Virus record (IMG/VR): IMGVR_UViG_3300047462_000282
Span: 1-64,000 of that record
DNA: 64,000 nucleotides
DNA from: a virus
Direction: 5' to 3' (one strand)
Of this stretch, positions 540 through 58,223 are shown in pieces (position 1 is the stretch's first letter; the number at the start of each line of letters is the position of its first letter). The notes below the pieces were generated by a model, which was not told the origin of the DNA, made no database searches, and saw only the letters and a list, made by a program, of their open reading frames with translations. A program made the translations under genes and the position numbers.

Positions 540-867
540 AGATCCTCGTAAAACTGGATTAAAAAATGGATTACGACAATTGACTATTGCACAATTGCAA
601 AGAGTGATTACTTATCCAGAAGAGATGGTACTAGATACCTATAATTATGAGGATGGGAAGTTTTGTCCCCTAGCAGTAGCCTTAGAGCTGGACAAAACCA
701 TGGTAGACCCTTCTCATGACAAAGTTTTTACCGAACTAACCAAACAAGGTTACAAGGTTTACAATACCCGAGGTATAGAGGGACAATTCTATACTACAAA
801 TCGTAAAGAAGATTTGCTAGAAGCTGCCATTGAAGTTCTTAAAGAAAAACAAGAGGAAACTGAGTGA
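508..867 (+). CDS. Hypothetical protein
   Basis: 119-residue protein of unknown function. I chose ATG 508 (MGLTSIKLKNEDPRK) because the reading before it lies entirely inside the HNH frame; GGAAGAG sits immediately upstream, closely spaced. The C-terminal half is rich in charged residues and ends in a helical EAAIEVLKEKQEE segment. Its last four bases overlap the GTG start of infC, so it is probably translationally coupled to IF-3. No membrane segment or metal motif is visible. Confidence 0.6.
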   Translation: MGLTSIKLKNEDPRKTGLKNGLRQLTIAQLQRVITYPEEMVLDTYNYEDGKFCPLAVALELDKTMVDPSHDKVFTELTKQGYKVYNTRGIEGQFYTTNRKEDLLEAAIEVLKEKQEETE

Positions 868-1400
868 GTAACGCACAAACAACTAATCAAAGAATTCGTA
901 TTAACAATCAAATCCGCATCCCACAAATTCGTGTGGTTTTAAGCGATGGAACCAATGCTGGCGTCATGGCAACACGTGATGCACTTAAGATGGCTCAAGA
1001 TCAAGTCCTAGATTTGGTAGAAATTAATCCAAGAGCTGTTCCGCCTGTCTGTAAGATTATGGATTACGGTAAGTATAAGTACGAAGAAAAAAAGAAAATG
1101 GCTGAAGCCAAGAAAAATCAAAGGCTTCAGGAATTGAAAGAACTCACTTTCCGTCCCAATACTGATGAGAATGACTTGAACCACAAGCTTCAGCAAGCCA
1201 AAGAATTTTTGGCAGAGGGACATAAAGTTAAGTTTACTATTCGCTTCCGTGGTCGTGAGATTACCCATCCTCAAGTAGGCAGGGATAAGATGGACTGGAT
1301 TTTGCAGCAGTTAGCTGGCTTGATTGCCCCTGCGCCCTCAACTTCCTTGGAAGGTAAATTTATGAGTATGATAGTTATGCCTACTAAACAAAAGGCATAA
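864..1400 (+). CDS. infC: Translation initiation factor IF-3
   Basis: 178 residues, the normal full length of IF-3. The N-domain (about 1-80) carries the typical RINNQIR and LVEINPRAVPPVCKIMDYGKYKYE segments, followed by the basic linker helix (EEKKKMAEAKKNQ) and a C-domain with ELTFRPNTDENDLNHKL, KVKFTIRFRGRE and the HPQVGRD segment. IF-3 binds the 30S subunit, discriminates start codons and prevents premature 50S joining. Start is GTG 864 overlapping the upstream stop, with AGAGG seven bases before. A phage copy would let the virus bias initiation. It is directly followed by tRNA-Arg. Confidence 0.95.
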   Translation: MSNAQTTNQRIRINNQIRIPQIRVVLSDGTNAGVMATRDALKMAQDQVLDLVEINPRAVPPVCKIMDYGKYKYEEKKKMAEAKKNQRLQELKELTFRPNTDENDLNHKLQQAKEFLAEGHKVKFTIRFRGREITHPQVGRDKMDWILQQLAGLIAPAPSTSLEGKFMSMIVMPTKQKA

Positions 1401-1407
1401 TTGGTAT

Positions 1408-1483
1408 CTCCCCGTAGTTCAGCGGACAGAACGTCAGTTTCCTAAACTGAATGCCGCAGGTTCGAATCCTGCCGGGGAGACCA
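1408..1483 (+). tRNA. tRNA-Arg(CCT)
   Basis: Full cloverleaf of 76 nt: acceptor CTCCCCG/CGGGGAG, D arm GTTC/GAAC, anticodon stem TCAGT/ACTGA around the loop TTCCTAA (anticodon CCT), T arm GCAGG-TTCGAAT-CCTGC, discriminator A and an encoded CCA. It reads AGG arginine codons, which together with AGA are frequent in these AT-rich genes. It lies seven bases after infC and is likely cotranscribed. No other tRNA was seen. Confidence 0.93.
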
Positions 1484-1513
1484 CAAATCTGCCAATAATT
1501 GATCATTCTTATT

Positions 1514-1596
1514 ATGAAGAACGGAACAATTTGCTCCAAACATGGTTGCGAAAAAAACTGAATACAAGAATGCCAATGGCACCTCTCAATTCACTT
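1514..1596 (+). pseudogene. Possible 5' fragment of the HNH gene split by the IS
   Basis: ATG 1514 opens MKNGTICSKHGCEK, with a CxxxxC zinc-ribbon-like start, then a stop after a run of seven A; in the neighbouring frame the sequence continues TEYKNANGTSQFTS up to the IS boundary. Beyond the IS the HNH reading resumes with FGDRKECKREYYQ. Related HNH proteins in this window begin with a CxxC zinc ribbon followed by CxxCxKQY, so this is plausibly the interrupted N-terminus, possibly also frameshifted at the A7 run. This is inference; the joint was not reconstructed to the base. Confidence 0.35.
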
Positions 1597-1765
1597 CTGA
1601 ATAACCAACGACTAAAGTCGTTGGGTTCTGAGGTTTCAAAAGTCTTGCTTCAGACATTGAATTGCCTCATAGGCGCTTCAGTAGCACCATTTCCAAACAA
1701 CTCTGTCTGTTTGGAAGTGATCAAGGCAGATGACTTTGCGATATTGAAAGCCGCATTAACATCCG
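1597..1765 (-). ncRNA. Candidate omega RNA (TnpB guide RNA) region
   Basis: TnpB nucleases use an RNA derived from the 3' end of tnpB and the right end of the element, with the guide taken from flanking DNA. Here that interval holds a 9-bp hairpin TTCCAAACA/TGTTTGGAA (1691-1699, 1708-1716) inside the tnpB 3' coding end and the right-end hairpin (1605-1624). The remnant copy at 1-127 keeps a hairpin at the same spot with different, still complementary arms, which supports an RNA role. The 5' limit given is approximate, and the guide would read into DNA below 1597. Confidence 0.45.
1605..1624 (-). repeat. IS605 right-end subterminal hairpin
   Basis: Nine-base arms CCAACGACT and AGTCGTTGG with a two-base loop. 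The same arms occur in the remnant at 100-119. In this family the transposase TnpA recognises such hairpins as single-stranded DNA. Confidence 0.85.
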
Positions 1766-2666
1766 CATGATCGCTGTGTTTGCAATGACAACAGCTAAAC
1801 CTCTTACCATTTCGTTTTCCAAGTTCGCCACATTTACTACAGTTTTGGCTGGTGTATGCTGGACGAATATGCAATACTGGAATACCTGCAAGTAGAGCTT
1901 TGTAGGCGATCATTGTGCCTAATTGATAGTAGCTCCAAGAGTTCAGAATATAACGGAATGATTTACTATTCTTTTTACTATTGAGAATACCTGTTAGTTG
2001 TTCTAACTTGATACCACAATTGTTGTCTTTAGCAAACTGAACAATCTGTTTGCTAATCTTATGATTAAGATACTTTACTTTTCTGGTTTCTTTACCTTTT
2101 GTTTCTTTCAACTTCTTATATAATTTTTGCTTATGCAAACTACTTCTTAATGCCTTATACTTCTTATGTATATGAGGTGCTTGCTTACCAAGCTTAATAA
2201 CTTTACCACTAATAGGTTCGGCAGCTACCGCACAATGAGATGTTGCATTCAGATCAACTCCAATAAAATTTTCCAATTGTTGCATAGGCTGATCTTGTTG
2301 CTCGAATGCAACATAAGCATAAGTAGCATCTAATTCAATCTGCTTGACCTTTACGATCTGATATTTACTCTCATTGTTTAGCGTTAATTTTAGAGGTACT
2401 ACTCTTATTTTAGAGCTTTCTACCTTGATCGACTGTGCCGGTGCTACTAACTTGATCTTCGTTGGATTGATGCGCTTGCACTTCTTGTTCTTGCCATACT
2501 TGCGGAGAATTTGATTGCTAATTGCTGAAGGCAGACCAATATTAGAGACATTAACTGATGATAATTTCATGCGATTTTTGATCGCATAGTTAGCTACCAA
2601 CGCCGCCTTCCGCAAATGTTCTGTTAGATCGGCATTATGTTTGATTTTGATAACTAATATACTCAT
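1650..2666 (-). CDS. tnpB: TnpB RNA-guided nuclease of the IS605 element
   Basis: 338 residues, slightly short for TnpB (typically about 370-400). RuvC-like catalytic residues are visible: Asp in IGVDLNATSH, Glu in GIKLEQLTG, and Asp in HADVNAAFNIAK; between them lies the zinc ribbon CSKCG...CCHC. All three acidic residues are present, so the nuclease looks active. TnpB cleaves DNA guided by the element's RNA and helps the element persist after excision. Its first four bases overlap the end of tnpA (ATGA), so translation is coupled. Confidence 0.93.
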   Translation of the reverse strand: MSILVIKIKHNADLTEHLRKAALVANYAIKNRMKLSSVNVSNIGLPSAISNQILRKYGKNKKCKRINPTKIKLVAPAQSIKVESSKIRVVPLKLTLNNESKYQIVKVKQIELDATYAYVAFEQQDQPMQQLENFIGVDLNATSHCAVAAEPISGKVIKLGKQAPHIHKKYKALRSSLHKQKLYKKLKETKGKETRKVKYLNHKISKQIVQFAKDNNCGIKLEQLTGILNSKKNSKSFRYILNSWSYYQLGTMIAYKALLAGIPVLHIRPAYTSQNCSKCGELGKRNGKRFSCCHCKHSDHADVNAAFNIAKSSALITSKQTELFGNGATEAPMRQFNV

Positions 2667-3061
2667 CGTGCCTTCTGTTCCAAGATATATTTTTCAACTG
2701 TGGCAGCAGAGATATGTCCCACGCTTTCGCAATAATAACTTCTTGTCCAAAGAGTTGGCAATCTAGTTTTCAATAATGGAAACTCTTCTCTCAATATATG
2801 AGATGATTTGCCTTTCAATTGCTGAACTACATAGTGCGGAGAATGAACTGGAGAGCATTTAATGAAGATATGAACATGATCAGGCATAATTTCCATAGTT
2901 TCAATCTGACAATCAATTGAAGAACTAATCTCAATAAGAAGTTCTTTTAGCCTAACTTCAATCTGATCTACTAAGACTTTACGACGATACTTTGGACACC
3001 AAATAATATGGTATCCAATGTTATAGATTGCCTTATTGCTATGTGTCCATCGTGCGCTCAT
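2663..3061 (-). CDS. tnpA: TnpA Y1 transposase (IS200/IS605)
   Basis: 132 residues, usual length. Contains IIWCPKYRRKVL, the HUH metal motif in MPDHVHIFIKC, and the C-terminal helix VEKYILEQ with the nucleophilic tyrosine. It cuts and rejoins single-stranded element ends at the subterminal hairpins. All catalytic features appear intact, so the element may still be mobile. Confidence 0.95.
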   Translation of the reverse strand: MSARWTHSNKAIYNIGYHIIWCPKYRRKVLVDQIEVRLKELLIEISSSIDCQIETMEIMPDHVHIFIKCSPVHSPHYVVQQLKGKSSHILREEFPLLKTRLPTLWTRSYYCESVGHISAATVEKYILEQKAR

Positions 3062-3150
3062 ACATTACCTTCTGACATGTATATATCAGAAGCTGTATAT
3101 ATTCAAATAAAAATAATATCTATCTGACAAATAACTGCTAACGCATTCAT

Positions 3151-3170
3151 CCAACCACTGAAGTGGTTGG
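3151..3170 (-). repeat. IS605 left-end subterminal hairpin
   Basis: Perfect nine-base arms CCAACCACT and AGTGGTTGG with loop GA, just outside tnpA on the minus strand. It is one base different per arm from the right-end hairpin. A TTG inside it can serve as the start of the downstream HNH remnant. Confidence 0.85.
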
Positions 3171-3913
3171 CTTTCTGCTTTGGAGATCGTAAAGAGTGTA
3201 AGAGAGAATATTACCAAGCTAATAAAGCATCAATCTTACGCTTGAAAAAAGAGTATAGACAGGATAACCTACCTCTCTTGAGAGAAAGAGATAAACAATT
3301 TTATTCTTCTCATAAAGAAGAAAAATTAGAATATCGACGCAGTTACTACGAAGAAAATAAAGAGCAGATCAAGAAAAATTCTGTTGAACGCCAGTATACT
3401 AAAAAGTATAGAGAAAAGAACCCAGAAAAAGTTAAACTTTATAATCAAGAGTATGGTAAAAATTATAGGGCAAACAATAAAGAGAAAATCAGAAAGAAAG
3501 ATCGTAAATACGAAACTGACCGCAGGCAAAATGATCCATCTTACAGATTGAGAAAGAATATCTCCAGATCAATCAATTTTTATCTATCTAAAGTCGGATT
3601 GAATAAAATGAATAGCTGTATGGATTATATTTCTTTTTCTATTCAAGAGCTTATTACTCATATTGAAAAACAATTTGAACCTTGGATGAGTTGGAACAAC
3701 CAAGGAAAGTATCAGGTAGAAATTTGGAAAGATGATGACATTTCTACTTGGACTTGGCAGTTAGATCATATCATTCCACAGAGTTCTTTTGATTTTTCTA
3801 AACCTGAAGAAATTAAGAAGTGCTGGGAATTATCTAACCTTCGACCTTACTCCGCAAAACTCAATGTTATAGAAGGAGATAGGAAGGTTGTTGGATGGCA
3901 AAAAATGGTATAA
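3167..3913 (+). CDS. HNH homing endonuclease, N-terminus replaced by IS sequence
   Basis: The first in-frame start is a TTG within the IS left-end hairpin, so the native N-terminal zinc ribbon is lost. What remains has a long charged coiled-coil of tyrosine-spaced repeats (EYRRSYYEENKEQIKKN and similar, about residues 15-130) and an intact C-terminal nuclease core: NNQGKYQVEIWKDDD, TWTWQLDHIIPQSS, and CWELSNLRPYSAKLN. The same core is found at 23353-24095 and 40683-41132. It overlaps the start of the next gene by 19 bases, typical of a free-standing homing gene lodged at a gene border. Whether any protein is made is unclear. Confidence 0.7.
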   Translation: MAFCFGDRKECKREYYQANKASILRLKKEYRQDNLPLLRERDKQFYSSHKEEKLEYRRSYYEENKEQIKKNSVERQYTKKYREKNPEKVKLYNQEYGKNYRANNKEKIRKKDRKYETDRRQNDPSYRLRKNISRSINFYLSKVGLNKMNSCMDYISFSIQELITHIEKQFEPWMSWNNQGKYQVEIWKDDDISTWTWQLDHIIPQSSFDFSKPEEIKKCWELSNLRPYSAKLNVIEGDRKVVGWQKMV

Positions 3914-4644
3914 TTCTCGCAGGCGGAACTGGCTCTCGTCTAGCCCCACTCACTAGTGTAGTTAATAAACATCTATTAGATCTTAATGGAAAGTTCATTA
4001 TAGATTATCCTATTGATACCCTGAAACAATTGGGTTGTCAAGACGTTACCGTTATTTTGGGTGGCAATCACTTCTCCCAAGTAGTGGGTTATCTTGGCGA
4101 TGGTAGTCGTTATGGAATGAATTTTAATTACGTTTACCAGCCTGAGCCCAAGGGAATCGCTCACGCAATCAGCTTGTGCGAAAGATTCGTTAGAGATGAT
4201 GTTGATTTTTCCGTCATCTTGGGAGACAATGTGTTTGAGAAGGCTCCACGTTGGAATAATCCTAACTGGAAAACTCATCCGCGTGCCCAAATTATGCTGG
4301 CAAATCATCCCTCTTTAACGCGCTTTGGTGTTGCCTCCATAGATGATAATAATAAAATTGTCAAAATTGAAGAAAAGCCTAAGTCATTAGACCCGCAATT
4401 TACTAACATGGCAATCTCTGGATGTTATTTGTTTACTCCAGTTTTCTTTGAGTACTTCAAAGAACTAAAGCCTAGTGCACGTGGTGAATATGAAATTACA
4501 GATATTATTAGAAAATATCTAGAGGCTGATAATCTTCATTACAGTATGGTTAATGGTTTATGGAGCGATGCTGGAACTCATGAATCTATAAGCTATGTCA
4601 ATCATTTTTTCTATCAAAAGGAACACGGAATCACTCAGATGTGA
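3895..4644 (+). CDS. RmlA-like sugar-phosphate nucleotidylyltransferase
   Basis: 249 residues. N-terminal LAGGTGSRLAPLT (residues 8-20) is the nucleotide-binding signature of glucose-1-phosphate thymidylyltransferase-type enzymes, followed by the conserved Lys-His-Leu-Leu and DYPI; VILGDNVF supplies the metal-binding Asp, and EEKP and GEYEITD are conserved later. These enzymes make NDP-sugar from NTP and sugar-1-phosphate. It is about 40 residues shorter than bacterial RmlA, so the allosteric C-terminal helices may be missing. Start ATG has AGGAAGG eight bases upstream. The next gene encodes a matching NDP-sugar epimerase/reductase. Confidence 0.88.
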   Translation: MAKNGIILAGGTGSRLAPLTSVVNKHLLDLNGKFIIDYPIDTLKQLGCQDVTVILGGNHFSQVVGYLGDGSRYGMNFNYVYQPEPKGIAHAISLCERFVRDDVDFSVILGDNVFEKAPRWNNPNWKTHPRAQIMLANHPSLTRFGVASIDDNNKIVKIEEKPKSLDPQFTNMAISGCYLFTPVFFEYFKELKPSARGEYEITDIIRKYLEADNLHYSMVNGLWSDAGTHESISYVNHFFYQKEHGITQM

Positions 4645-4650
4645 TATAAT
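4642..4650 (+). promoter_or_regulatory. Putative extended -10 promoter
   Basis: TGATATAAT (TGN followed by TATAAT) lies at the end of the preceding gene and 34 bases before the next ATG. No convincing -35 is present, as is often so for extended -10 promoters. It would drive the 4684 gene separately from the nucleotidylyltransferase. Confidence 0.4.
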
Positions 4651-4683
4651 AGTTGTTGATTGTTATTTCCTATTTGAGGTATC

Positions 4684-5589
4684 ATGAAAGTATTGACGAT
4701 TGGTAATGGATTTGTAGCCGAACATCTACCACATGAAATTTTGGGCGGCAATGAAAGAGTTGTTGCTAATAGTATTGGGCAGATGCAAAGTATTATTGAG
4801 CAATACAAACCAGATGTGATAGTTAATTGCATTGGCAAGACTGGTCGTCCTAATGTGGACTGGTGCGAAACCCACAAAGAAGAAACTGCATCTGCGAACG
4901 TAGTTCTACCAATCGTGTTGGCTGAAGTTTGTGCCAAGCATTCTGTTCGTCTTGTGCAGATTGGTTCCGGCTGCATTTACTTTGGCGAGTCTCCTAATTT
5001 TCATTATGTGCAAGCTGATGGTAAGCCTATGCCAGATGTTAGCTGGAATATGCCACACACCGTGACATTGCCAGCTAAAAAAATAGATGATGGCTGGATG
5101 GAAACGGACTTTGCTAATCCAAAGTCATTTTACTCAAAGAGTAAGTATGCTTGCGATTTAATGATTGGTAGCATGAGCCATGTAACCACTTTGCGCATTC
5201 GCATGCCAATCTCCACCCGAAACACCTCACGCAACTTGATTAACAAATTGCGAGGCTATAAACAAGTGATTGATATTCCTAACTCAGTTACTTTTATGGA
5301 TGACTTGGCTCGATGTGTAGATTGGGCGATTCAAAATGAAAAAACTGGAATATTCCACGTGACCAATCCAGAGCCTTTAACGGCAGCTCAAGTTATGAGA
5401 GAGTATCAAAAATATGTGCCATCGCATTCTTTCGAAATAATTAGCGAACAGCAACTAGATGGATTAACAACTGCTAAGCGTTCTAACTGTATTATTAACA
5501 GTGATAAATTGGCAGCAGCAGGATTCACTATGACACCAGCTAAACAAGCTCTAGCAGATTGTATGGCTAAATACGTTAAGAATTTATAA
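4684..5589 (+). CDS. NDP-4-keto-6-deoxyhexose epimerase/reductase-like SDR (NRS/ER type)
   Basis: 301 residues with a Rossmann start (MKVLTIGNGFVAEHL), the segment GRPNVDWCETHKEE, SGCIYFGE, the YSKSKYA catalytic Tyr-Lys pair, and LRIRMPIS...NLINKLRGYKQVIDIPNSVTFMDDL. This series is characteristic of the plant UER1/RHM C-terminal domain and mimivirus homologues that convert dTDP/UDP-4-keto-6-deoxyglucose to L-rhamnose by combined epimerisation and reduction, more than of bacterial RmlD. With the upstream nucleotidylyltransferase it suggests rhamnose-type glycan or DNA/virion decoration. No 4,6-dehydratase lies in the window. Ribosome site GAGGT is five bases before ATG. Confidence 0.85.
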   Translation: MKVLTIGNGFVAEHLPHEILGGNERVVANSIGQMQSIIEQYKPDVIVNCIGKTGRPNVDWCETHKEETASANVVLPIVLAEVCAKHSVRLVQIGSGCIYFGESPNFHYVQADGKPMPDVSWNMPHTVTLPAKKIDDGWMETDFANPKSFYSKSKYACDLMIGSMSHVTTLRIRMPISTRNTSRNLINKLRGYKQVIDIPNSVTFMDDLARCVDWAIQNEKTGIFHVTNPEPLTAAQVMREYQKYVPSHSFEIISEQQLDGLTTAKRSNCIINSDKLAAAGFTMTPAKQALADCMAKYVKNL

Positions 5590-5600
5590 TTGGAGATTTT

Positions 5601-5795
5601 ATGTCTAACAAGAATATTACTATTGATTTGAAGGCTCGTACTGACAAAGACGGAATGATTTTTTATGTCGGTAAGGTCAAGGCTCCGGTTTTGATTGATT
5701 GTGAGAAGGGCGCTGTCTTTTTGGTGTTCATTTCTGACAAAGGTGATGAACAACTTCAAATCGCTTTGATGGATAACAAAGACGTCGAGGATTAA
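5601..5795 (+). CDS. Hypothetical small protein
   Basis: 64 residues, unknown. Short beta-rich reading (FYVGKVKAPVLIDCEKGAVFLVFISD) with an acidic C-terminus (MDNKDVED). GGAG six bases before ATG. It follows the epimerase by 11 bases and precedes the next gene by one base, so it is an operon member. No motif recognised. Confidence 0.65.
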   Translation: MSNKNITIDLKARTDKDGMIFYVGKVKAPVLIDCEKGAVFLVFISDKGDEQLQIALMDNKDVED

Positions 5796-5796
5796 C

Positions 5797-6096: not shown

Positions 6097-6097
6097 C

Positions 6098-10440: not shown

Positions 10441-11025
10441 TTGAATACCATTCTACTTGAATCGACCGAGCACGGTGAAATGCCCGTGGACATTTATCAG
10501 AAGCTATCTAATGATCGAATATTATTCATCTGTAATAATATCGATGATAAATTGGCAACTGATATTGTGGCTACGTTGCTATTAAAAGATGCAGAGGATA
10601 CTGATAAAAAAATCACATTATTTATTAACTCTGATGGCGGCGATATTCGCAATGTCTTAATGATTTATGATATGATGAAAATGATTGAATCTCCAATAGA
10701 GACTGTTTGCATTGGATCCGCTATGGATGAAGCCGCAATTATTTTGGCGGCGGGAACTCCTGGCATGAGACTAGCTACGAAAAATTCTGTCATTGCAGTA
10801 AGTCAGCTAGTAACTAATTGGGCATCATTTTCTGACATGACCGACGCGAAAAAAGCTTTAGAAAAAGTAACCGCTGACAACAAAAAAATGATGGATATTT
10901 TTGCTAAGAGCACTAAGAAAACCTATAAGCAAGTTTCGGAAGATTTTGATAGAAGAGTGTTTATGAATGCTTCTGAAGCTGTGAAATATGGGTTAATTGA
11001 TCATGTTGTAGGATCGGCTAAGTAA
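10441..11025 (+). CDS. ClpP-fold protein lacking the catalytic triad (ClpR-like)
   Basis: 194 residues, full ClpP fold from a TTG start; the residues right after it (TILLESTEHGEMPVDIYQKL) already align with the ClpP N-terminus. FINSDGG, IGSAMDEAAIILAAGT and the YGLIDHVV end are conserved, but by alignment with the next gene the nucleophilic Ser is Asp96, the catalytic His is Ser121 and the Asp is Arg172. It is therefore expected to be proteolytically dead. Cyanobacterial and plastid ClpR subunits form mixed rings with ClpP; the adjacent active ClpP suggests the same here. Confidence 0.88.
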   Translation: MNTILLESTEHGEMPVDIYQKLSNDRILFICNNIDDKLATDIVATLLLKDAEDTDKKITLFINSDGGDIRNVLMIYDMMKMIESPIETVCIGSAMDEAAIILAAGTPGMRLATKNSVIAVSQLVTNWASFSDMTDAKKALEKVTADNKKMMDIFAKSTKKTYKQVSEDFDRRVFMNASEAVKYGLIDHVVGSAK

Positions 11026-18765: not shown

Positions 18766-20082
18766 ATGGTAGATAAAAACAAAGACTATTTGACCCCGGT
18801 TGATATGGAGAGACAAGAGCATTTATCTTTATCGCGTTTAAAGGCGCTTACTCCATCATGTAGTCCTGCTAGTTTAATTACTGCAAGACCGCCAGCAAAT
18901 TTCATAGACTTGATGAATTGGACAAAAGACAATTTTGCTAATGGCGTTCTGAAAGAACCGGTTTTGAAGTTAGTTCATAACAGAATTATCATAGATGGAC
19001 AATTCCTAGAGTTCTGTGAAGAAAACTCTGTGAAGATAGAGTGTCTTTGGAAAGACTCTATTATTTCTTGGAAGTCTGAGAACAATTATGAAAAGTTTTT
19101 TGTTCAGGGAATTTTCCATATCACATCAAAAAATGTGAATTTTATTCATGCAGCCTTATTTCATAAGGGCAATCAGAATGAAGATGAGATTAGCTTTTTT
19201 GTTCTTGTGTCCGAAAAAGACTATGAGAACTATATCGTTTTTCGCAATAAGTTCGATGAGTGGGTTCAACAAAGAGACAGAAGCAATCTTAACATTCATG
19301 TAGTAGATGGAGATGATATTCCGTATACTAAAGATGTTACTTGGGATCAAATGTTCTTGCCCGACGATATCAAAAATGATTTGAAGAGTTTAGTTGAGAA
19401 TTTCTTGGCATCCAAGGATTTTTATCTGGAAAAGAAGATTCCATGGAAGCGTGGCGTGCTATTGTATGGTAAGCCAGGTAATGGTAAGACCTCTATTATT
19501 CGCACCATTATCTCTGAGTATAATTTCAAGCCAGTTACAATTGAACCTGGTGCCGATGACAACTCGGTTCGTGAGGCGTTTTCATATGCCGAAGAACAAA
19601 GTCCGTCTTTATTGTACTTTGAAGACCTAGATTCTCTGTTTGAGAGGGGAGTGGATAAATCAACCTTCTTAAATTTGATGGACGGCATTTCGACAAAAAA
19701 CGGTCTATTGGTGATTGCTACGGCAAATGAAGTTAAAAAGCTAACCGCCAATATTACCCAACGACCATCCCGATTTGATAGAAAATTTGAAATTCCCTTA
19801 CCAAATCAAAAAATGGCTTATATATATCTAAAGAGATGGTTTGGCAATCTCATTGACAACAAGAAATGTAAAGAGCTTGCTAAGTATGCAGAGATGTATG
19901 AGTTTTCTTATGCCTATTTGAAAGAGCTGTATATCTCATCTATGTTCGAGGCTTTGGCTCATAATCGCAAGGCACCGACATTAAAAGATATAGATAATGC
20001 ACTTAATCGCTTAGTAAAAGATAAAAATATATTAAATAGCGGTAACGCTATTAACACGGACAAATACTTTAACAAAGGTTAA
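18766..20082 (+). CDS. AAA+ ATPase, Bcs1-like
   Basis: 438 residues. N-terminal domain (about 1-205) of unknown fold, then one AAA module: Walker A GKPGNGKTS (about 236), Walker B LLYFEDLDSLF, sensor 1 VIATANE, and arginine finger region RPSRFDRKFEIPLPN. The module resembles Bcs1/FtsH-branch AAA ATPases. No membrane helix or protease domain is attached. Phages carry such ATPases as unfoldases or remodelers; the M41-type protease at 36340 lacks an AAA domain and could be a partner, which is only a guess. Confidence 0.85.
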   Translation: MVDKNKDYLTPVDMERQEHLSLSRLKALTPSCSPASLITARPPANFIDLMNWTKDNFANGVLKEPVLKLVHNRIIIDGQFLEFCEENSVKIECLWKDSIISWKSENNYEKFFVQGIFHITSKNVNFIHAALFHKGNQNEDEISFFVLVSEKDYENYIVFRNKFDEWVQQRDRSNLNIHVVDGDDIPYTKDVTWDQMFLPDDIKNDLKSLVENFLASKDFYLEKKIPWKRGVLLYGKPGNGKTSIIRTIISEYNFKPVTIEPGADDNSVREAFSYAEEQSPSLLYFEDLDSLFERGVDKSTFLNLMDGISTKNGLLVIATANEVKKLTANITQRPSRFDRKFEIPLPNQKMAYIYLKRWFGNLIDNKKCKELAKYAEMYEFSYAYLKELYISSMFEALAHNRKAPTLKDIDNALNRLVKDKNILNSGNAINTDKYFNKG

Positions 20083-20098: not shown

Positions 20099-20476
20099 AT
20101 GAAAGATAATTATAAGAAATCGAGAAAGAACTTTAAAAAGGCACCGAGGGGAGGTGAATCGAGCCAAGTCGAAGTCAACGACAAATTTGCACATATCCAA
20201 CCAGTGCAAGCACAACCACTAGAAGTCAAAGTTTACCACGGTAATTTTGACAAAGCCCTCCGCGCCTTTAGAGCCCTCGTTCAAAAAGAACGCATTCTCT
20301 CTACCTATAAAGAGAAGCAGTCTTACGAGAAGCCATCTGATAAACACAGGAGAAAACGTAACGAGATGAAGAGAAAGCGTTTGGAAATTGATTCAACCGG
20401 TCAAAATCAATTCTACGAAAGAAAGAATAAGCCTTCTTTCAAGCGCCACCCCAAGTCTAGCGTATCTCCAGAATAA
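20099..20476 (+). CDS. rpsU: Ribosomal protein bS21
   Basis: 125 residues. The bS21 core (about 41-98) reads LEVKVYHGNFDKALRAFRAL, then VQKERILSTYKEKQSYEKPSDKHRRKRNEMKRKRL, matching the bS21 layout with the YEKPS...KRK helix. Cellular bS21 is about 70 residues; here there are unusual N- and C-terminal basic extensions. bS21 sits near the anti-Shine-Dalgarno end of 16S rRNA and influences initiation; phage copies can replace the host one. Preceded by GAGAA before ATG. With IF-3 this makes two initiation-stage proteins in one phage. (Second motif split: KEKQSYEKPSDKHRRKRN.). Confidence 0.88.
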   Translation: MKDNYKKSRKNFKKAPRGGESSQVEVNDKFAHIQPVQAQPLEVKVYHGNFDKALRAFRALVQKERILSTYKEKQSYEKPSDKHRRKRNEMKRKRLEIDSTGQNQFYERKNKPSFKRHPKSSVSPE

Positions 20477-25555: not shown

Positions 25556-25561
25556 TAAGTG

Positions 25562-26098
25562 ATGATTATTACGAATAATGAAGAGGCGCTCCGCGTCAAA
25601 TGTGAGGATGTTTCACTTGATGAAGTGGGTTCCTTAATTGCTACTCTAGAAAATGAGCTTAATCAAGCCAACCGATTGGGTAAGGGTGGCATTGGGTTAG
25701 CGGCGCCACAAATAGGTATTGCTAAAAATATTGCAATTATCAGGCTGGGTAAAGGATTGGACCTAAATTTAGTGAATGCTAAAATCCAAAATGGATATGA
25801 TCCCCTGATGTTTAGACAGGAGGGATGTTTATCTTTTCCTGGTCGCACAGAAGACACCACCCGTTTTCAAGAAGTACATGTTACTAACAATTTAGTAGAG
25901 CCGTACAGTTTCGTAGCAACTGGCTTATTGGCAGTGGTATGCCAGCACGAAATTGATCATCTTAGTTCCACTTTGTTTATGGATCGTGCCATTCCTAAAA
26001 TCGCGCCCGTTATCAATAAAACCAAGGTGGGACCTAATCAGCCATGCATTTGTGGCTCTGGGAAGAAATATAAAAAGTGTTGCGGGAAGGTATTATAA
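25562..26098 (+). CDS. def: Peptide deformylase with C-terminal SEC-C zinc motif
   Basis: 178 residues. The three deformylase motifs are present: [10 protein letters not shown] (43-52), EGCLSFPG with Cys89, and QHEIDHL with His129, Glu130 and His133. It removes formyl groups from nascent N-termini. After the catalytic domain a SEC-C motif follows ([18 protein letters not shown], about 158-174), a zinc module known from the SecA C-terminus, where it contacts ribosome and SecB. I know no standard deformylase with this tail. Start ATG 25562 preferred over GTG 25559 by spacing. Confidence 0.93.
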
Positions 26099-36339: not shown

Positions 36340-36996
36340 ATGTCCAATAAGGGTGTCGGGTCGATTGACTATTTCCGTAAGAAAGTAACAAAAACTTACG
36401 AATTTATCTCGACCTCATACCATGAGGCTGGGCATACTGTGTATGGATTGCTTAATTATATGAATATTGAGTCTATTATTGTCTACGAAGACAAAAAACT
36501 CAAAAGAATTTGCGGCTTTACATACTATGATTCTCCCAAATTAGATAGTATTGAGTGCGATGAGCTACTTTCTAATCGAGTTCATGCAGAAATAGGTCTG
36601 TCCTATGCTGGGTTGGTTGCGGAAAAGCGCCAATTTGCATTAGCTTCGGGTTCTAATAAATTTCCACTATTCTTAAAAGATGGCTCCTCAGATGACACTA
36701 TTGAGGCTTCTAACATAATGAGAAAGTATCAAGTTGCCCCTCCTGGAAGAAAAAGATATGAGTTCAAAAAGAAAATGATTAGGGAAGTGGGCACCCAATT
36801 ACAAGAACATTGGGATGCTGTTACAATAATAGCACATGCTTTGTTCCGTAAGAAACAACTCAGCACCGCCGAAGTTAAAGATTTACTGATAAAAAAGAGC
36901 AAAAATAAGAAATTCTGGAAAAATCAATTCAAAATGATTGAGTCTATTTATTTAGAAGATGGCTCTTCAGTTTTTCCTCAATCGATTATCAATTAA
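36340..36996 (+). CDS. Stand-alone M41 (FtsH-type) zinc protease
   Basis: 218 residues. STSYHEAGHTVYGLL carries the metal motif HEAGH (28-32); LSYAGLVAEKR and GSSDDTIEASNIMRKY match FtsH M41 helices, the latter including the third zinc ligand region. The AAA module and membrane helices of FtsH are missing. Proteolysis would need an external unfoldase or unfolded substrates. The Bcs1-like ATPase at 18766 is a candidate partner, unproven. GAGAACATG start region. Confidence 0.8.
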   Translation: MSNKGVGSIDYFRKKVTKTYEFISTSYHEAGHTVYGLLNYMNIESIIVYEDKKLKRICGFTYYDSPKLDSIECDELLSNRVHAEIGLSYAGLVAEKRQFALASGSNKFPLFLKDGSSDDTIEASNIMRKYQVAPPGRKRYEFKKKMIREVGTQLQEHWDAVTIIAHALFRKKQLSTAEVKDLLIKKSKNKKFWKNQFKMIESIYLEDGSSVFPQSIIN

Positions 36997-47775: not shown

Positions 47776-48333
47776 ATGAAAAAGGTATTAGGTTTCGATG
47801 TATCGAGTACTACCATTGGTTGGTGCTTATTAGAATTTGATGAATCAAATAATAAGATAGAGTATGTTACCGCTGGTTATGTAAAGCCCCTTAAAAAGGG
47901 AAGTATTATTGAACGTATTGTAGATACTCGAAATAAAATTCAAGATATTATTGATCAAGTTAAACCAGATTATATTGGAATTGAAGATATCATTCAATTT
48001 ATGAAAGGTCATAGTACTGCTAAAACCATCATTATGTTAACAACATTTAATAGAATGATTGGTTTATGTGCTTATGATTATTTGAAAAAGTCTCCAGAAC
48101 TATTTAGTGTAATGTCTATTAGACACGGATTAAAAACTGATAAAGATTTACCTAAAAAAGAAGATATGCCAGAATTGGTAGCAAAGCATTTAGAGATTAG
48201 TTTCCCATATGAGTATAATAAAAAGGGTAAGGTCAGGGTTGAAAGCTTTGACATGGCTGATGGTATCGCTGTAGCTTTGTATTATGCTTTTGTGTTGACT
48301 GGCAGAGTGAAGCGCAAGGTTAAGAAAAAATGA
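47776..48333 (+). CDS. RuvC-like Holliday junction resolvase
   Basis: 185 residues from ATG 47776 (MKKVLGFDVSSTTIGW). The RNase H-like motif Asp8 in GFDVSSTTIGW, IGIEDI (Glu) and SFDMADGIAVALYYA (two Asp) give the catalytic set. It would resolve branched DNA before packaging. An upstream in-frame ATG at 47755 reads through the terminator and motif, so it was rejected. The C-terminus is basic (RVKRKVKKK). Overlaps dnaJ by four bases. Confidence 0.88.
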   Translation: MKKVLGFDVSSTTIGWCLLEFDESNNKIEYVTAGYVKPLKKGSIIERIVDTRNKIQDIIDQVKPDYIGIEDIIQFMKGHSTAKTIIMLTTFNRMIGLCAYDYLKKSPELFSVMSIRHGLKTDKDLPKKEDMPELVAKHLEISFPYEYNKKGKVRVESFDMADGIAVALYYAFVLTGRVKRKVKKK

Positions 48334-49256
48334 ATTTGAAGGACGCATACTCAATCTTAGAAATTCCGCAAACCTCTACACCAGAGGAAGCTAAGAAAAA
48401 GTATCGTGACCTCACCAAGAAGTTTCATCCCGACATTAACAAAGAGCCGGGAGCTGAGGATAAATTCAAGAAAATTAATGAAGCCTACCAAGTGGTCTCT
48501 ACTGGTAAGAGTACAGACCGACAACAATTTCGTCAAACCAATACTTATAATCCATTTGGCAGACAGAATGTTATTTATGCTGATCACATTAATATTTCAA
48601 CCACTATTTCTTTCAAAGAGTCAATAGAAGGCTGTAATAAAGAAATAACATTTAATAGAAATGTCAAATGCAAGCCTTGCGGTGGTCAAGGAGAATCAAC
48701 TATAAATAATGGTTGTGCCAAGTGTGGCGGGCGAGGTCAAGTAGTAATGAGGCAGGGCAACATGGTTATGGTTCAGACATGTGATAAATGTTTTGGCAGA
48801 GCTGATGTTGAGTCTTGTTCTGCTTGCAATGGAGAAGGTTTTGTGCAAGCAGAAACATCTATTACAGTGAATATTCAAGGTGGAAGAAATAATGGAGATA
48901 CTTTGAGATTAGCTGGAATGGGAAATTATGTTGGTAATTTTGGACCTATAGAACAGTACACTGATGCTCATCTAAATGTTCAAGTTATTCCAGAATCTGG
49001 TTTGTCACTGGATGGTACCAGTGTAGTGTGTCAATTACAGCTTTCTTTGCTAGAGGCTTTGAAAGGTTGCCAAAAGAGTGTTAAAACGATTGATGGAGAA
49101 ACGACTATCGATATTAAGCCGTTATCTAGACATAAAGAAGAGGTTGTTCTTCCTAAGCTTGGAGTTAATCGACAGGGAGATCAAAGAGTTATTTTGGATA
49201 TAAAATATCCAGATAATATAGATAATTTGATTAATGGACTTTCAAAGGAAATATAA
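48330..49256 (+). CDS. dnaJ: DnaJ-type Hsp40 co-chaperone
   Basis: 308 residues, class I layout in short form. J-domain with HPD at 33-35; the Gly/Phe region is reduced; zinc module has CKPCGGQG, CAKCGGRG, CDKCFGR and CSACNGEG (third repeat deviates from CxxCxGxG); then NGDTLRLAGMGN and the C-terminal substrate domains. It stimulates DnaK, which is not encoded here, so host DnaK is the expected partner. ATGA overlap with the resolvase. Confidence 0.93.
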   Translation: MNLKDAYSILEIPQTSTPEEAKKKYRDLTKKFHPDINKEPGAEDKFKKINEAYQVVSTGKSTDRQQFRQTNTYNPFGRQNVIYADHINISTTISFKESIEGCNKEITFNRNVKCKPCGGQGESTINNGCAKCGGRGQVVMRQGNMVMVQTCDKCFGRADVESCSACNGEGFVQAETSITVNIQGGRNNGDTLRLAGMGNYVGNFGPIEQYTDAHLNVQVIPESGLSLDGTSVVCQLQLSLLEALKGCQKSVKTIDGETTIDIKPLSRHKEEVVLPKLGVNRQGDQRVILDIKYPDNIDNLINGLSKEI

Positions 49257-53096: not shown

Positions 53097-53099
53097 TCT

Positions 53100-53990: not shown

Positions 53991-54002
53991 ACAGAGGCAC
54001 TT

Positions 54003-54722
54003 ATGAGAATCGCAGAAATGTTACAAGCTATCGCATCTTGGCTGGAAAGTCCAGACAATGAGGCTTTGCTATTAGCCGAATATCACGACGACAGCATGAA
54101 AGTTGTTGCCGAGAATTGTGTTCTTGCTGCCGCTCTTTTAAAGAGTGCCGCTGAACAAGTATCCGAAATGGAACCACCTCCAGAATCCAATTTAACTCCT
54201 GAAAACATCCAGGAAATTGCTAATCTTGCCAATGCTTTCGACGCTTCCGGTGATCCAGGTCTAAAGAAGCAAGCTTCTGTACTTGACGAACTACTACTAT
54301 CTATTGCAGCTCCGCCAAATGCTTATGCTGAGAGAAAAGATCTACAAGAGCAAAGATTAGTCGAACTAAAGAAAAAGTACGAGCAACCTCGTGAAGATTT
54401 GGCTGAAGCTAACTTGATTAACAAGTCAGAAAAGGCAATTGATAAAAGTGAGATGACCAAGAGATACAATATTTTGGAAGCTCCACTTAGCTCCAGATAT
54501 TGTCCAGATCATCCAGGCGTTCAAATTGCTCGTGTGGGTGAACACATGTGGCAATGCGAGATGGATAAGAAAACCTATAACTTTGAGACCGGTTTCGAAT
54601 TGAACAATGGTGCCAAGGTTCCAGGTGGTGACGTTGCTCAACAAACTCAGAACTCTCTTAACGTTCCATATCACGCTATCTTCGATACCCGTGAAGGCAG
54701 ACTTGGTTACAACAAGCCATGA
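54003..54722 (+). CDS. Hypothetical protein
   Basis: 239 residues. Helical head (MLQAIASWLESPDNEALLLA), Pro-rich turn, helical middle (RLVELKKKYEQPREDLAEAN) and a C-terminal zinc-ribbon-like piece with CPDHPG and MWQCEMD, of the kind that has a CxxH/C pair. AGAGG before ATG. Function unknown. Confidence 0.55.
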   Translation: MRIAEMLQAIASWLESPDNEALLLAEYHDDSMKVVAENCVLAAALLKSAAEQVSEMEPPPESNLTPENIQEIANLANAFDASGDPGLKKQASVLDELLLSIAAPPNAYAERKDLQEQRLVELKKKYEQPREDLAEANLINKSEKAIDKSEMTKRYNILEAPLSSRYCPDHPGVQIARVGEHMWQCEMDKKTYNFETGFELNNGAKVPGGDVAQQTQNSLNVPYHAIFDTREGRLGYNKP

Positions 54723-54731
54723 AGGATTTTA

Positions 54732-55490
54732 ATGAACAAACCAGCTTACAAAAAAATTCTGGAGCATCCAGATAAGGATGAAATTATTGCTAAGTTGGTG
54801 ACTGGTCAATCGCCTGCCGAGATACATGAATGGTTAAAAGCTAAATATACCAATGTAAGTGAATCGAAGTTTGTCTTAACTGAGAAACTTCTAAAGTCAT
54901 TTCAAAATACATATTTAGATTTCTATAATGATATTCAAGAAGATTTAGCTAAAACTAAAACGGCTCTGGCAACCAACACCTCTGATCAGCTAGATTTAGC
55001 AGTCAAGGGCAATCCAGCATATAAAGATGCTATGCTCAAGCTTGCCAATGGAGAGCTAGATGTTGATAGAATTTTAGCTAATTTAGCTATTAATATAGAG
55101 ACTCGTTTGTCTCAAATTTTTGATTATATTCAGGAAAATCCTAGGGATGTTAATACTAGAATAGACCGCTTGATCACAGAATATGCTGATACCTTGGGTA
55201 ATTTATTAGATAAATACCATAAGTGGAAGGAAGTTCGCCCTGATCAAATCATCCAGCACAACGTGACTTTGCAGGTCGTAGACCAGCATATTTCGGTATT
55301 TCATGATGTAATCAAAGAGGTTTTATCTCAAATGGATTTGGAAACTTCCCTATATTTCATGGAAGTATTCAATGAGAAAATGGCTAAGCTAAAGATGCCA
55401 ACTCCAGAAGCTCCGCCATCAACTGAGATGAAACTTGCTGAAGCTAAATTGCTTAACGAGACCATCAATAAGAAGATTAACGAGTCATGA
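54732..55490 (+). CDS. Hypothetical helical protein
   Basis: 252 residues, helical. IIAKLVTGQSPAEIHEWLKA near the start resembles a compact HTH (terminase small subunit-like heads sometimes look like this, but the likeness is weak), followed by long helices (RLSQIFDYIQENPRDVNTRI) and a coiled-coil end. It is a few genes upstream of terL. GAAGG before ATG; four-base overlap with the next gene. Confidence 0.55.
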   Translation: MNKPAYKKILEHPDKDEIIAKLVTGQSPAEIHEWLKAKYTNVSESKFVLTEKLLKSFQNTYLDFYNDIQEDLAKTKTALATNTSDQLDLAVKGNPAYKDAMLKLANGELDVDRILANLAINIETRLSQIFDYIQENPRDVNTRIDRLITEYADTLGNLLDKYHKWKEVRPDQIIQHNVTLQVVDQHISVFHDVIKEVLSQMDLETSLYFMEVFNEKMAKLKMPTPEAPPSTEMKLAEAKLLNETINKKINES

Positions 55491-57436
55491 CCAACAAACA
55501 CCACTCACCAATTATCGATATGCCATCCAAGGAACAATTGGAAATGGCTACTCGTCCATCTGATGAAGAATTGGTGTTGAATCCAGAAATGAAGACTAAG
55601 CTTGAAAAGTTGATGAAGTATTTTGATGAGGTGGGCATCGACTACTCTAAATTTGATCCAGAGTCCATACCTCACCTAGATTTTAGCAAAAAGGACGCAT
55701 ATCCAAATTTCGACCAATACATGCACATCCCTGGGCAGCACAATACCCAAAAGTGGTTGGCAGCAGTTCGTTCTATTTATCAAACGGAGAAAAGTGGCAG
55801 TGGTCGTGTAGATGCTATTCGTAAAGCTACTTCAGGTTGGAATATCATGGAGACTTATGACTTCTTGAACTGGCTAAAATATCATGAATCAGGAGATCAC
55901 TTGAAATACAAATTTGCACAACTATGGTATGAAAACGGTGCTCCCGGTTATTTTTTACATGTGAAACCAGATCCAGTCAAAGAGCCAGAACCACAAGTTA
56001 CTGGACGTGACATTGATTTCGCCAGAGACTCTGTTACCGAAAAGACTGAGCGTAAACAAATTATCGAGAAGCAAAGAAATAAAATCATTGGACGCTTGGA
56101 CTCAGCAGAAAAATTGCTAAGATCGCCTGATGGTCAAATCTTCTCTGGAAAAGAATTCGAATCACTACTGGAATCCATCTACGAATTAAAGAAGAGGATT
56201 CAGATGGTTAACAAGATTAGCTCTTCAACTAGATTGTATGAAGATATGATTGTGCGTCAAGCTAACGTACTTCAAAGGCAAGGTTTTACTAAGGCAGCAT
56301 CTGTACTACATTCTTTGGCTCAAAGCCCAGCACAATCTGGAGAAGAGGTAAAAGAGCAAGGTGAAGCAGGCGCTGGAAATGTAATTCCTCCAGCTACGCC
56401 ACCAGACGATCCAACAGGTGCTGGTCATCCAGGCGCTCCAGGAGGATTGCCATCTATGGGTCCAGGTATGCCTCAAAACGCGCCTTCTGATAGCGTTCCA
56501 GAAACTGGTCCTAACGAAAATTTTCCAGGCAATCCACAAGGTGGCGGAGGACAAGCTGCAACCACAACTCAAGCCCCAAACTCTTTGCCAGTAGAGCCAC
56601 AAAAATCGAAAGGCATTAGTGAGTTTTTGGAAGGCATGGAAACATCCAAGTTCACTACTGATGAGGGTGTAGCAGAAGATGATGGATTAGAAGTTGACGA
56701 CAACATCAATGTAGCTGACGATGATATGCTATTGGTTACAGAGGCACAAGCAGCTCCACCAGGACCAATTGATGAGCCAATGACTACAGCTCCAGCACCA
56801 GCACCATTGGATCCCGCTCCGATCCCAACTCCAAAAGCACCTGTTGCACCAGATGCTCCCGCAACCGAAGAGCCCTTGGAAGTAACTGAAGATGATATTG
56901 CTGCTCCACCAGGAGAAGCTGCAGTGCCCGCTGCTAGCGACTTTGATAACAAAGTTGATGCAGTATTTGCAAACATCACTGTTGCTGACGTAGTTGCCAA
57001 ACTAGAAGACTTAGCCAAAATTTACAAGACCAGAGAAGTTCCAAGACAACTTGGAATTGTAGATATGATGTTAGGCAGTCTTGGACTTGCCTCCTATTTC
57101 CCTTCTCTATCCGAAGCAACCAACAAAGCTCTTGAATCAAATAACTATATCTCTACTCGTTTGGAAGACATTTTATCCAAGCTACGTGGTGGTATGGCTG
57201 GTAATGAAATTGATTTGAAGGGCGGAGAGACTACTGAAAAACCAGAGGTGGCTGCACTTAAGGGAAAATTGCAACAAGATGAAGATAAAGAAAAGGCTCG
57301 TAAGAAGATGAGAAAAGAACAAGAAGCCGCCGAATTAGCTGGTCCTGCCAAGGAAACTCCAGAAGTAGAAATCGCAGAAGATTTAGGCGCCCCTCCAGCA
57401 GCTGCACCTCGTCCGCCTGTCGCCCCAACCGTATAA
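55487..57436 (+). CDS. Large protein with disordered Pro/Gly/Ala-rich centre
   Basis: 649 residues: folded N-terminal part (about 1-270; GQHNTQKWLAAVRSIYQTEK, helical bundle), a long low-complexity centre (about 285-490) of Pro, Gly and acidic residues, and a helical C-terminal block (about 490-620) ending in a Pro/Ala tail. ATGA overlap with the gene before. Such layouts occur in phage neck, scaffold or tegument-like proteins. No domain recognised. Confidence 0.55.
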   Translation: MTNKHHSPIIDMPSKEQLEMATRPSDEELVLNPEMKTKLEKLMKYFDEVGIDYSKFDPESIPHLDFSKKDAYPNFDQYMHIPGQHNTQKWLAAVRSIYQTEKSGSGRVDAIRKATSGWNIMETYDFLNWLKYHESGDHLKYKFAQLWYENGAPGYFLHVKPDPVKEPEPQVTGRDIDFARDSVTEKTERKQIIEKQRNKIIGRLDSAEKLLRSPDGQIFSGKEFESLLESIYELKKRIQMVNKISSSTRLYEDMIVRQANVLQRQGFTKAASVLHSLAQSPAQSGEEVKEQGEAGAGNVIPPATPPDDPTGAGHPGAPGGLPSMGPGMPQNAPSDSVPETGPNENFPGNPQGGGGQAATTTQAPNSLPVEPQKSKGISEFLEGMETSKFTTDEGVAEDDGLEVDDNINVADDDMLLVTEAQAAPPGPIDEPMTTAPAPAPLDPAPIPTPKAPVAPDAPATEEPLEVTEDDIAAPPGEAAVPAASDFDNKVDAVFANITVADVVAKLEDLAKIYKTREVPRQLGIVDMMLGSLGLASYFPSLSEATNKALESNNYISTRLEDILSKLRGGMAGNEIDLKGGETTEKPEVAALKGKLQQDEDKEKARKKMRKEQEAAELAGPAKETPEVEIAEDLGAPPAAAPRPPVAPTV

Positions 57437-57449
57437 TTGAAACAAATGA

Positions 57450-58223
57450 ATGAAACTCCGAGAACTACTCCACACGATGCAGGAAGTACAAAAGAAAATA
57501 GGGTCAGCTAAACCCTATATTTGTGGTGGTACGCCCCGCGATAAGTATATGGGGCACTTAGAGAATATTTCAGATTTGGATATTACTACAGGCGATAAGA
57601 CTGTAGACTATTTGTCTCAAGAATTTGCTATTGAACTAAAAAAGAAGTACAACATCACCAGAAAAACTATGGAAGATGGTCATAGCACTATCTTTGTGGG
57701 TACTCTGAAAATGGACTTCTCATCTAATTTTAATGTCCCAGGCATCGAACAAATTTTAGCTGCTCGTGGCATTCCCAATGCTACCGATATGCAAAAAGAG
57801 ATGTTTAGTCGTGACTTCACATGTAACGCTTTACTACTATCAATGGACCTAAAAAATATTGTAGATCCAACCAATAGAGGGTTTAAAGACATCAAAGAAA
57901 GAAAAATCAGAACTTGTTTAGATCCAAAAACCACACTCACTTCCAATAGAAATAGAGTGATTCGAGCCATTTATTTAGCTGCTAAGTTGGATTTTGATTT
58001 AGATGATGCTATTGTTGAATTTGTACAAAAGAATCCAGAATCGGTTAAAATTTCCACTGAGAAGTCCATGGTAGAAAAGCTAAATGAAGCCTTCAAGCGT
58101 GATGCCGATAAATCTAGCTATTTAATTACTAAATTAGGTCTATGGAATCATATTCCTATTACCGAAGCCGTATATCCTTACTATATGAAAGCAGTTAAAG
58201 GGAAAACCAATGTGCCCAAATAA
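57450..58223 (+). CDS. CCA-adding tRNA nucleotidyltransferase-like enzyme
   Basis: 257 residues, class II nucleotidyltransferase fold. YICGGTPRDKYMG (24-35) has the GG and RD pairs; ISDLDITTGD has the two catalytic Asp (42 and 44); RDFTCNALLLSMD and a following IRTCLDP segment complete the head and neck. It lacks the long C-terminal body of bacterial enzymes (about 400 residues). It likely adds or repairs CCA on tRNA; poly(A) polymerase is the alternative. Its placement within probable virion genes is unusual. Overlaps the next gene by 14 bases. Confidence 0.85.
   Translation: MKLRELLHTMQEVQKKIGSAKPYICGGTPRDKYMGHLENISDLDITTGDKTVDYLSQEFAIELKKKYNITRKTMEDGHSTIFVGTLKMDFSSNFNVPGIEQILAARGIPNATDMQKEMFSRDFTCNALLLSMDLKNIVDPTNRGFKDIKERKIRTCLDPKTTLTSNRNRVIRAIYLAAKLDFDLDDAIVEFVQKNPESVKISTEKSMVEKLNEAFKRDADKSSYLITKLGLWNHIPITEAVYPYYMKAVKGKTNVPK

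Follow-up and report, generated by a model that had tools for sequence, protein, structure and literature searches.

Does a huge phage that encodes its own translation proteins act only where the host ribosome begins a protein, or also where the new chain leaves it? The question is raised by the first 64,000 bases (hereafter the window) of the 193,526-base IMG/VR phage record IMGVR_UViG_3300047462_000282 (G000), in which the genes under study span 864-58223, coordinates that our analysis confirms. On the whole, our results point to a conserved block of huge-phage genes concerned with the fate of a protein on leaving the ribosome, a reading for which we consider the chances about even. As judged from their sequences, the proteins are shown to belong to named families, to keep most key residues (except in a dead ClpP copy, ClpP') and to be encoded in one order. 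The IF-3, bS21, peptide deformylase with a SEC-C tail, trigger factor, DnaJ and two ClpP that the original prediction had read in the window are all recovered by Pfam and PHROG matches, and its tRNA-Arg(CCT) by ARAGORN (Table 1). Chance matches are very unlikely, because the families recur above their cut-offs in relatives (an M41 peptidase by protein search).

Two selections of relatives underlie the counts below. By the terminase only, the best 80 of 103 relatives include 14 on contigs of at least 100 kb. Together with the record itself and 16 contigs of at least 100 kb chosen by the deformylase (from the best 80 of 193 relatives), they make up a set of 31 records, some of which are fragments. 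The SEC-C tail was one of the six patterns in the deformylase relative search, which biases the distant relatives found there towards tailed enzymes; no such bias affects the records chosen by terminase. Sequences under set lengths and identical copies were dropped from the bS21 alignment of relatives. One relative, G001 (IMGVR_UViG_3300049215_000529, 204,190 bases), overlaps the window's record: the paired coordinates of eight genes always add up to 89,787, identity is 99-100% at the loci of deformylase, trigger factor and terminase, and 1,786 compared bases of the overlap are identical. The two records are one virus, whose genome by arithmetic is therefore at least about 308 kb. Two other records, G008 and G010, look near-identical. 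In the annotated phage collection (50,697 records), the first 25 kb of the window have no near match, and terminase matches are about 25% identical (best 20 of 62).

The genes for ClpP, bS21, deformylase, trigger factor and the M41 peptidase follow one order on one strand in all 22 records that hold all five, with a span of 19.1-29.2 kb (median 24.9); owing to the G000/G001 and G008/G010 pairs, fewer than 22 of these records are independent. What had been described as a dispersed kit is thus a conserved, ordered block. Among the 14 terminase-chosen records, deformylase, trigger factor, bS21, the two ClpP, M41 and DnaJ are each found in 12, a polyA-polymerase head domain in 14, methionine aminopeptidase in 8, IF-3 in 7 and EF-Ts in 6. 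Joint presence in relatives, put forward as a check by the original prediction, holds for bS21, the tailed deformylase, trigger factor and the Clp pair, and does not hold for IF-3. In G003 and G012, the two records missing the core, the contig reaches no more than about 11.5 and 8.1 kb upstream of the terminase match; in the window's genome DnaJ starts 13 kb and the deformylase 36 kb before the terminase. The core is missing there because the contigs end before the region, and both contigs retain the short nucleotidyltransferase, the gene nearest the terminase. In other words, the core is present in every terminase-chosen record covering the region. Among the 16 deformylase-chosen records, 12 have trigger factor, and the four without it (G027-G030) are more distant.

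The deformylase, whose start is more likely the ATG at 25562 from comparison with relatives, has motifs I (GxGLAAxQ), II (EGCLS) and III (QHExDH) intact. Its G46, Q51, E88, C90, H130, E131 and H134 are invariant in a 34-sequence alignment, with motif III read as HEIGH or HEINH in some relatives. The SEC-C tail scores 34 bits against a Pfam cut-off of 20.4, and in the same alignment the ligands C163, C165 and C174 are invariant and C175 is kept in at least 90%. All 12 terminase-chosen records with a deformylase have the tail. Of 112 loci, a strict tail pattern missed 15, which on reading prove to vary in spacing or in a ligand; with a relaxed pattern every one of the 112 shows a Cys-rich tail. 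Even forms such as KKCSCH, or those whose loop is enlarged, have Cys or His where the ligands are expected. For the 27 closest deformylases, the window's included, mean pairwise identity falls from 0.93 in the motifs to 0.73 in the tail, 0.61 in the core and 0.31 in the linker. The tail is basic, with a median net charge of +6.5 over the last 30 residues (34 sequences). The phage protein has an FMD stretch, beyond which come the linker and the SEC-C module. In the AlphaFold2 model (pLDDT 91.7) the last helix is at 140-143, followed by a loose linker and the tail; no helix of at least 4 residues occurs after 143, and the ribosome-binding C-terminal helix of the E. coli type is absent. A second, weak deformylase match (41.8 bits) was seen in one relative, G004.

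What is the tail for? The SEC-C module is named after the SecA metal-binding domain. In E. coli the C-terminal helix of deformylase is the ribosome contact, beside the tunnel exit, and an FMD stretch forms a short 3-10 helix leading into it (PMC5591237; this and the other papers are cited for the available portions of their texts). On its own, the SecA metal-binding domain sediments together with ribosomes, and crosslinks form between the SecA tail and uL23 (PMC6620043). By this analogy we infer that the SEC-C tail may anchor the phage deformylase at the tunnel exit: it occupies the place of the E. coli ribosome helix, it is basic, and modules of this type have been shown in SecA to bind ribosomes (PMC6620043). 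It is rather less likely than not that the tail instead serves another partner (a SecB-like or a phage protein) or stabilises the enzyme, with no role at the ribosome. Viral deformylases, the tail-less Vp16 enzyme among them, are described as devoid of a ribosome-interacting region and are active in vivo (PMC5591237). SEC-C modules are found in many proteins and may bind partners other than ribosomes, and the linker and tail are modelled with moderate confidence only (pLDDT 64-83).

In the annotated phage collection 127 records match the deformylase, and none of the best 40 matches extends past query residue 158, that is, into the tail. The 634,780-base uncultured phage LR745206.1 has the same deformylase-SEC-C fusion, unannotated, and LR756508.1 was not found to have it. 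Among the best 80 of 441 bacterial loci, 37 show the deformylase motifs, 40 the SEC-C motif and none both in one frame; bacterial fusions may occur among the other loci. No report of the fusion was found in the best-ranked literature, in which subscription journals are thinly covered. In that coverage, the one paper that joins "deformylase" and "SEC-C" is on Streptomyces proteins.

The enzyme that would act after deformylation, methionine aminopeptidase, lies 139-180 kb downstream of the deformylase gene. Every one of the 13 records that extend more than 139 kb downstream of the deformylase carries it, and none of the 12 that extend 123 kb or less does, so that it is missing only where the contig ends first.

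The trigger-factor profile aligns with E. coli trigger factor (1w26, 3e-38) over positions 12-397, the PPIase region included, and also matches isolated PPIase domains such as 1l1p; there is no separate FKBP match in Pfam. The GFRxGK loop is trigger factor's contact with the ribosome. Its identity is the highest of the regions measured (0.84 vs 0.52-0.62 by domain), with G42 and R44 invariant in 27 sequences and GFR read in 26 of them. Identity to the window's protein is 57-70% in 23 of 26 aligned relatives and 33-38% in the other three. In the annotated phage collection only 18 records match, none with 30% identity or more, and the corresponding PHROG family, phrog_26774, has no function label.

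The two ClpP genes were compared in 20 distinct pairs, identical sequences being counted once. In the upstream copy, ClpP', all three triad residues are replaced in 20 of 20 (Ser by Asp, Asn or Lys; His by Ser, Thr, Asn or Gly; Asp by Arg, Lys, Ile, Gln or Leu), which bears out the inactive ClpP originally predicted: ClpP' has the sequence expected of an inactive pseudoprotease with the ClpP fold. The downstream copy keeps Ser and His in 20 of 20, the acid being Asp in 12 and Glu in 8. The N-terminal ExTxxG axial segment is present in 19 of 20 ClpP' (the exception being G009) and in none of the active copies. Consistently, alignments to PDB chains (60 shown for each) start at residues 4-7 of ClpP' except in three and at residues 18-22 of the active ClpP except in one. 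The N-terminal loops of ClpP gate the axial pore and turn ordered on ClpX binding (PMC9035409). In a tree of phage rows only, from which 4 of 48 rows were dropped (two duplicates and two from unrelated loci), ClpP' forms one clade with 99/100 support and ClpP another with 93/83, and their subgroups correspond by eye, so that the two proteins seem to have travelled together for long. Such complementary loss would be expected if both work only as a mixed barrel. Among the distant huge phages, G024 and G026 have one ClpP with both triad and segment, and the ClpP of G025 has the triad only. In the same literature coverage we found no report of a phage that encodes an inactive ClpP together with an active partner. 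Two further observations concern these proteins: the lost Ser and Asp positions of ClpP' seem to covary (Asp-Arg in most, Asn with Lys, Ile or Gln, and Lys-Leu), perhaps as a salt bridge replacing the triad, and G026 has a second, partial ClpP match.

The M41 protein has no match in Pfam or PHROG. Its 25-sequence profile matches FtsH (7vhp, E 7.2e-06), the zinc-site residues H28, E29, H32 and Asp119 are invariant in those sequences, as is G31, and its model (pLDDT 91.5) matches FtsH-family structures in Foldseek, so that the stand-alone FtsH-type protease of the original prediction is well founded. Its 218 residues have neither the fused AAA+ domain nor the membrane anchor of FtsH, and give no AAA match in Pfam. 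As for DnaJ, the DnaJ_C domain is found in 25 of the 31 records; in the window's protein the central domain falls just below the Pfam cut-off (31.5 vs 32.7 bits). Hsp70 is detected in none of the 31 records, with 12 of 14 control genomes positive; the phage DnaJ must therefore use the host DnaK, if it works as DnaJ. By eye only, no GroEL, EF-Tu or ClpX was noticed in the open reading frame (ORF) lists of the two records G000 and G001. A protein with a J domain fused to a protein kinase domain was seen in G001 (L463:5870-6901, minus strand).

Several results weigh against our main reading. IF-3 was not found in G004, G008, G010, G014 and G021, each with at least 67 kb of contig upstream of the deformylase; where present among the five-gene records, it is 14-28 kb upstream. 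Among the 12 terminase-chosen records that hold the core, five have no IF-3 detected; two of these look like one virus, and G009, with just 24.7 kb upstream, may be cut short and cannot be judged. The entry side, as far as IF-3 is concerned, is truly variable and not fixed. Upstream Shine-Dalgarno matches are ordinary (at least 4 bases in 0.52 of 181 genes vs 0.25 in shuffles), so that no special initiation signal marks the phage genes; a loss of Shine-Dalgarno sequences was considered and rejected on the same figures. In 5 of 28 sequences the trigger-factor loop has His or Arg in place of its Lys. The missing Hsp70 leaves the path without at least one engine. Finally, the genes of the block are interleaved with DNA-metabolism genes, and their common position may mirror the phage genome plan rather than a common function.

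In a different account, the genes were acquired singly, each aiding general protein synthesis and repair in the infected cell, with no joint machine at the exit and no preference for phage proteins; we would place it on the unlikely side. It agrees with the interleaving and with an IF-3 that comes and goes among relatives. Of the 13 records that extend more than 122 kb upstream of the deformylase, 11 have EF-Ts, which lies 77-121 kb upstream where present; in the distant G024 and G025 it is not found despite room. Varied translation genes are, moreover, known in huge phages (PMC7162821). Such piecemeal gain fits poorly, however, with six families present in every terminase-chosen record covering the region, five of them in fixed order, and with an aminopeptidase in every record that has room for it. 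The deformylase tail and the Clp division of labour, both specialised and conserved, also speak against it. IF-3 itself is familiar in phages (44 annotated records match), and in the distant huge phages G024-G026 (e.g. G025:151240-151922) an IF-3 match was seen 0.4-0.5 kb from the deformylase match, that of G025 scoring below the family cut-off.

ClpP-fold prohead proteases are common in phages, and the best PHROG matches of both ClpP are head maturation proteases. It is nevertheless improbable that virion maturation, unrelated to translation, is the task of the Clp pair and the M41 peptidase, since a separate gene in the same record (70589-74167) matches the head maturation protease family phrog_18299 (1.1e-15, ranked second, below a family of unknown function), both ClpP align with almost the full length of the cellular CLP_protease family, the dead ClpP' retains the segment that faces the unfoldase, and it is hard to see what a dead subunit would do in prohead cutting.

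Returning to a block for the fate of the new chain, the deformylase, held by its SEC-C zinc tail in place of the E. coli helix, would remove formyl groups at the tunnel exit, the phage trigger factor would use its GFRxGK loop to dock beside it, and next in line would be the phage methionine aminopeptidase. At the entry side bS21, plus IF-3 where present, would bias initiation on host 30S subunits. Failed chains would be handed by the phage DnaJ to host DnaK, or enter a mixed Clp barrel whose dead ClpP' ring serves as gate and as dock for host ClpX or ClpA, cutting being left to the other ring. What would unite these roles is that small exchangeable partners come from the phage and the ATP- or GTP-driven engines from the host; indeed, partner proteins rather than engines seem to be what the phage carries. 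Of the predicted rebuilding of both ribosome entry and exit, the exit half is supported in its gene set, since deformylase, trigger factor, Clp pair, DnaJ, M41 and aminopeptidase are a conserved core of the clade, and the entry half is weakened by the patchy IF-3. Likewise, the near-complete path from start codon to degradation has genes for these same proteins and lacks the Hsp70 engine.

A stronger version, which we put forward only tentatively and think doubtful as a whole, is a viral exit-site machine, in which the SecA-type tail re-anchors the deformylase, the host deformylase, aminopeptidase and trigger factor are crowded out, and the set is coupled to a split-function Clp barrel. If this were true, one ring would be gate and ClpX dock only and the other would only cut, neither homomer would work, and the host unfoldase would be forced to feed a phage-controlled chamber.

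Table 1. Features of the window, and two genes elsewhere in the record that bear on them
Feature	Coordinates	Strand	Support
IF-3 (infC), both domains, 178 aa, GTG start	864..1400	+	Pfam IF3_N 1.9e-31, IF3_C 1.1e-26; phrog_9787
tRNA-Arg (CCT), one	1408..1483	+	ARAGORN
ClpP', triad-less, N-terminal axial segment kept	10441..11025	+	Pfam CLP_protease 1.2e-51
ClpP, catalytic Ser-His-Asp, without N-terminal axial segment	11035..11625	+	Pfam CLP_protease 4.1e-47
AAA ATPase between Clp pair and bS21	18766..20082	+	Pfam AAA 1.6e-19
bS21, 125 aa, long N- and C-terminal extensions	20099..20476	+	Pfam Ribosomal_S21 5.2e-14 at residues 42-94
Peptide deformylase with C-terminal SEC-C tail	25559..26098	+	Pep_deformylase (PF01327) 1.4e-27, SEC-C (PF02810) 2.5e-08
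Trigger factor, three-domain layout, GFREGK loop, 415 aa	34448..35695	+	Pfam Trigger_N 8.1e-20, Trigger_C 7.6e-08
Stand-alone FtsH-type M41 peptidase, without AAA+ domain	36340..36996	+	Profile, zinc-site residues, Foldseek
DnaJ: J domain, zinc domain, C-terminal domain	48330..49256	+	Pfam DnaJ, DnaJ_C, central domain
Short nucleotidyltransferase, polyA-polymerase/CCA head domain only	57450..58223	+	Pfam PF01743 (PolyA_pol)
Full class-II CCA enzyme with RNA-binding domains, 411 aa (outside window)	record 87218-88453
Methionine aminopeptidase (outside window)	record 183790-184584		Peptidase_M24 2.1e-33

The CCA-adding enzyme that had been placed in the window is a short protein, for which Pfam finds the head domain only and no RNA-binding body and tail domains; its GG..RD, D.D and SRD.T.N motifs are invariant in 13 sequences, the window's included. 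A full-length enzyme does exist in the same record, outside the window. The AAA ATPase is a possible partner protein. Near the tRNA and IF-3, two genes at 1650-3061 (minus strand) resemble by eye an IS200/IS605 TnpA/TnpB pair.

The extra part of the genome contributed by G001 has 31 more tRNA genes and encodes tyrosyl-tRNA synthetase, EF-Ts, GroES, peptidyl-tRNA hydrolase 2 and two Thg1-like proteins. These last two, of the tRNA-His guanylyltransferase family (L461:14612-15496 and L458:3787-4572, both minus strand), occur in a phage that also has two tRNA-His genes. A tRNA with a CTA anticodon in G001 (L463:11329-11420, minus strand), called Pyl by ARAGORN, has a long variable arm and adjoins tRNA-Ser genes. 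Among mechanically listed ORFs of at least 150 aa, TAG ends 1 of the 140 from G000 and 3 of the 102 from the part contributed by G001. It looks as if a phage avoiding TAG carried a tRNA that reads amber. Recoding of TAG is not supported: by eye, the long frames of recognised genes hold TAG upstream of the start or as the stop, and none inside. Other genes worth recording are a 2258-aa protein with long collagen-like GPTGP repeats (L003:6014-12790, plus strand), a 454-aa protein resembling by eye a tubulin/FtsZ relative from its GGGSGAG stretch (record 167342-168706, plus strand), and adjoining genes resembling by eye NAMPT and nicotinamide-nucleotide adenylyltransferase, a pair for NAD salvage (G001:170699-173223, minus strand).

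It is of interest to compare this block with known systems. Control of translation by phages has been argued, in the papers compared, mainly for initiation, elongation and tRNA supply, and if deformylation, folding and degradation are served by a conserved viral set, the takeover would move to the other end of the ribosome. Such a set would also make takeover testable with small proteins, through one tail deletion and one two-subunit protease, and would offer natural variants for asking how a deformylase is retained at the exit without its usual helix and what the gate loops of ClpP do apart from catalysis. The general idea of ribosome takeover and of phage translation kits is already published. 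The huge phages of Al-Shayeb et al. 2020 (PMC7162821), for which takeover was proposed, likewise have IF-3, N-extended bS21, deformylase, CCA enzyme, EF-Ts and tRNAs, besides IF-1 and other elongation and release factors; the available main text, supplementary tables apart, has no mention of chaperones, Clp, trigger factor, methionine aminopeptidase or SEC-C. The bS21 phage clades of Chen et al. 2022 (PMC9723584) likewise have chaperones and Clp protease, two families of the latter lying close to bS21 (in 50 and 47 genomes); the available text mentions neither deformylase nor initiation factors, nor an inactive ClpP copy. A review of jumbo phages mentions ClpP and IF-3 and, in the portion available, neither deformylase nor trigger factor (PMC7824862). 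The phage deformylase shares motifs I-III and the fold with E. coli and viral deformylases, its model matching the E. coli enzyme, but it ends in a SEC-C zinc tail where E. coli has the ribosome helix and Vp16 has nothing (PMC5591237). That helix is a feature of type 1B deformylases and not universal. Cellular trigger factor has the same three domains and GFRxGK loop, and here it is phage-encoded. Compared with FtsH, the M41 peptidase has the same HExGH, Asp ligand and fold, and differs in being a 218-aa protein without the AAA+ domain. The ClpP/ClpR systems of cyanobacteria, plastids and apicoplasts likewise bring active and triad-less subunits together (PMC7966870); unlike in these, the active subunit of the phage is also without the N-terminal gate segment, and the genes are viral. 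Against this background two features look new: the deformylase with its tail and the Clp pair with its split functions.

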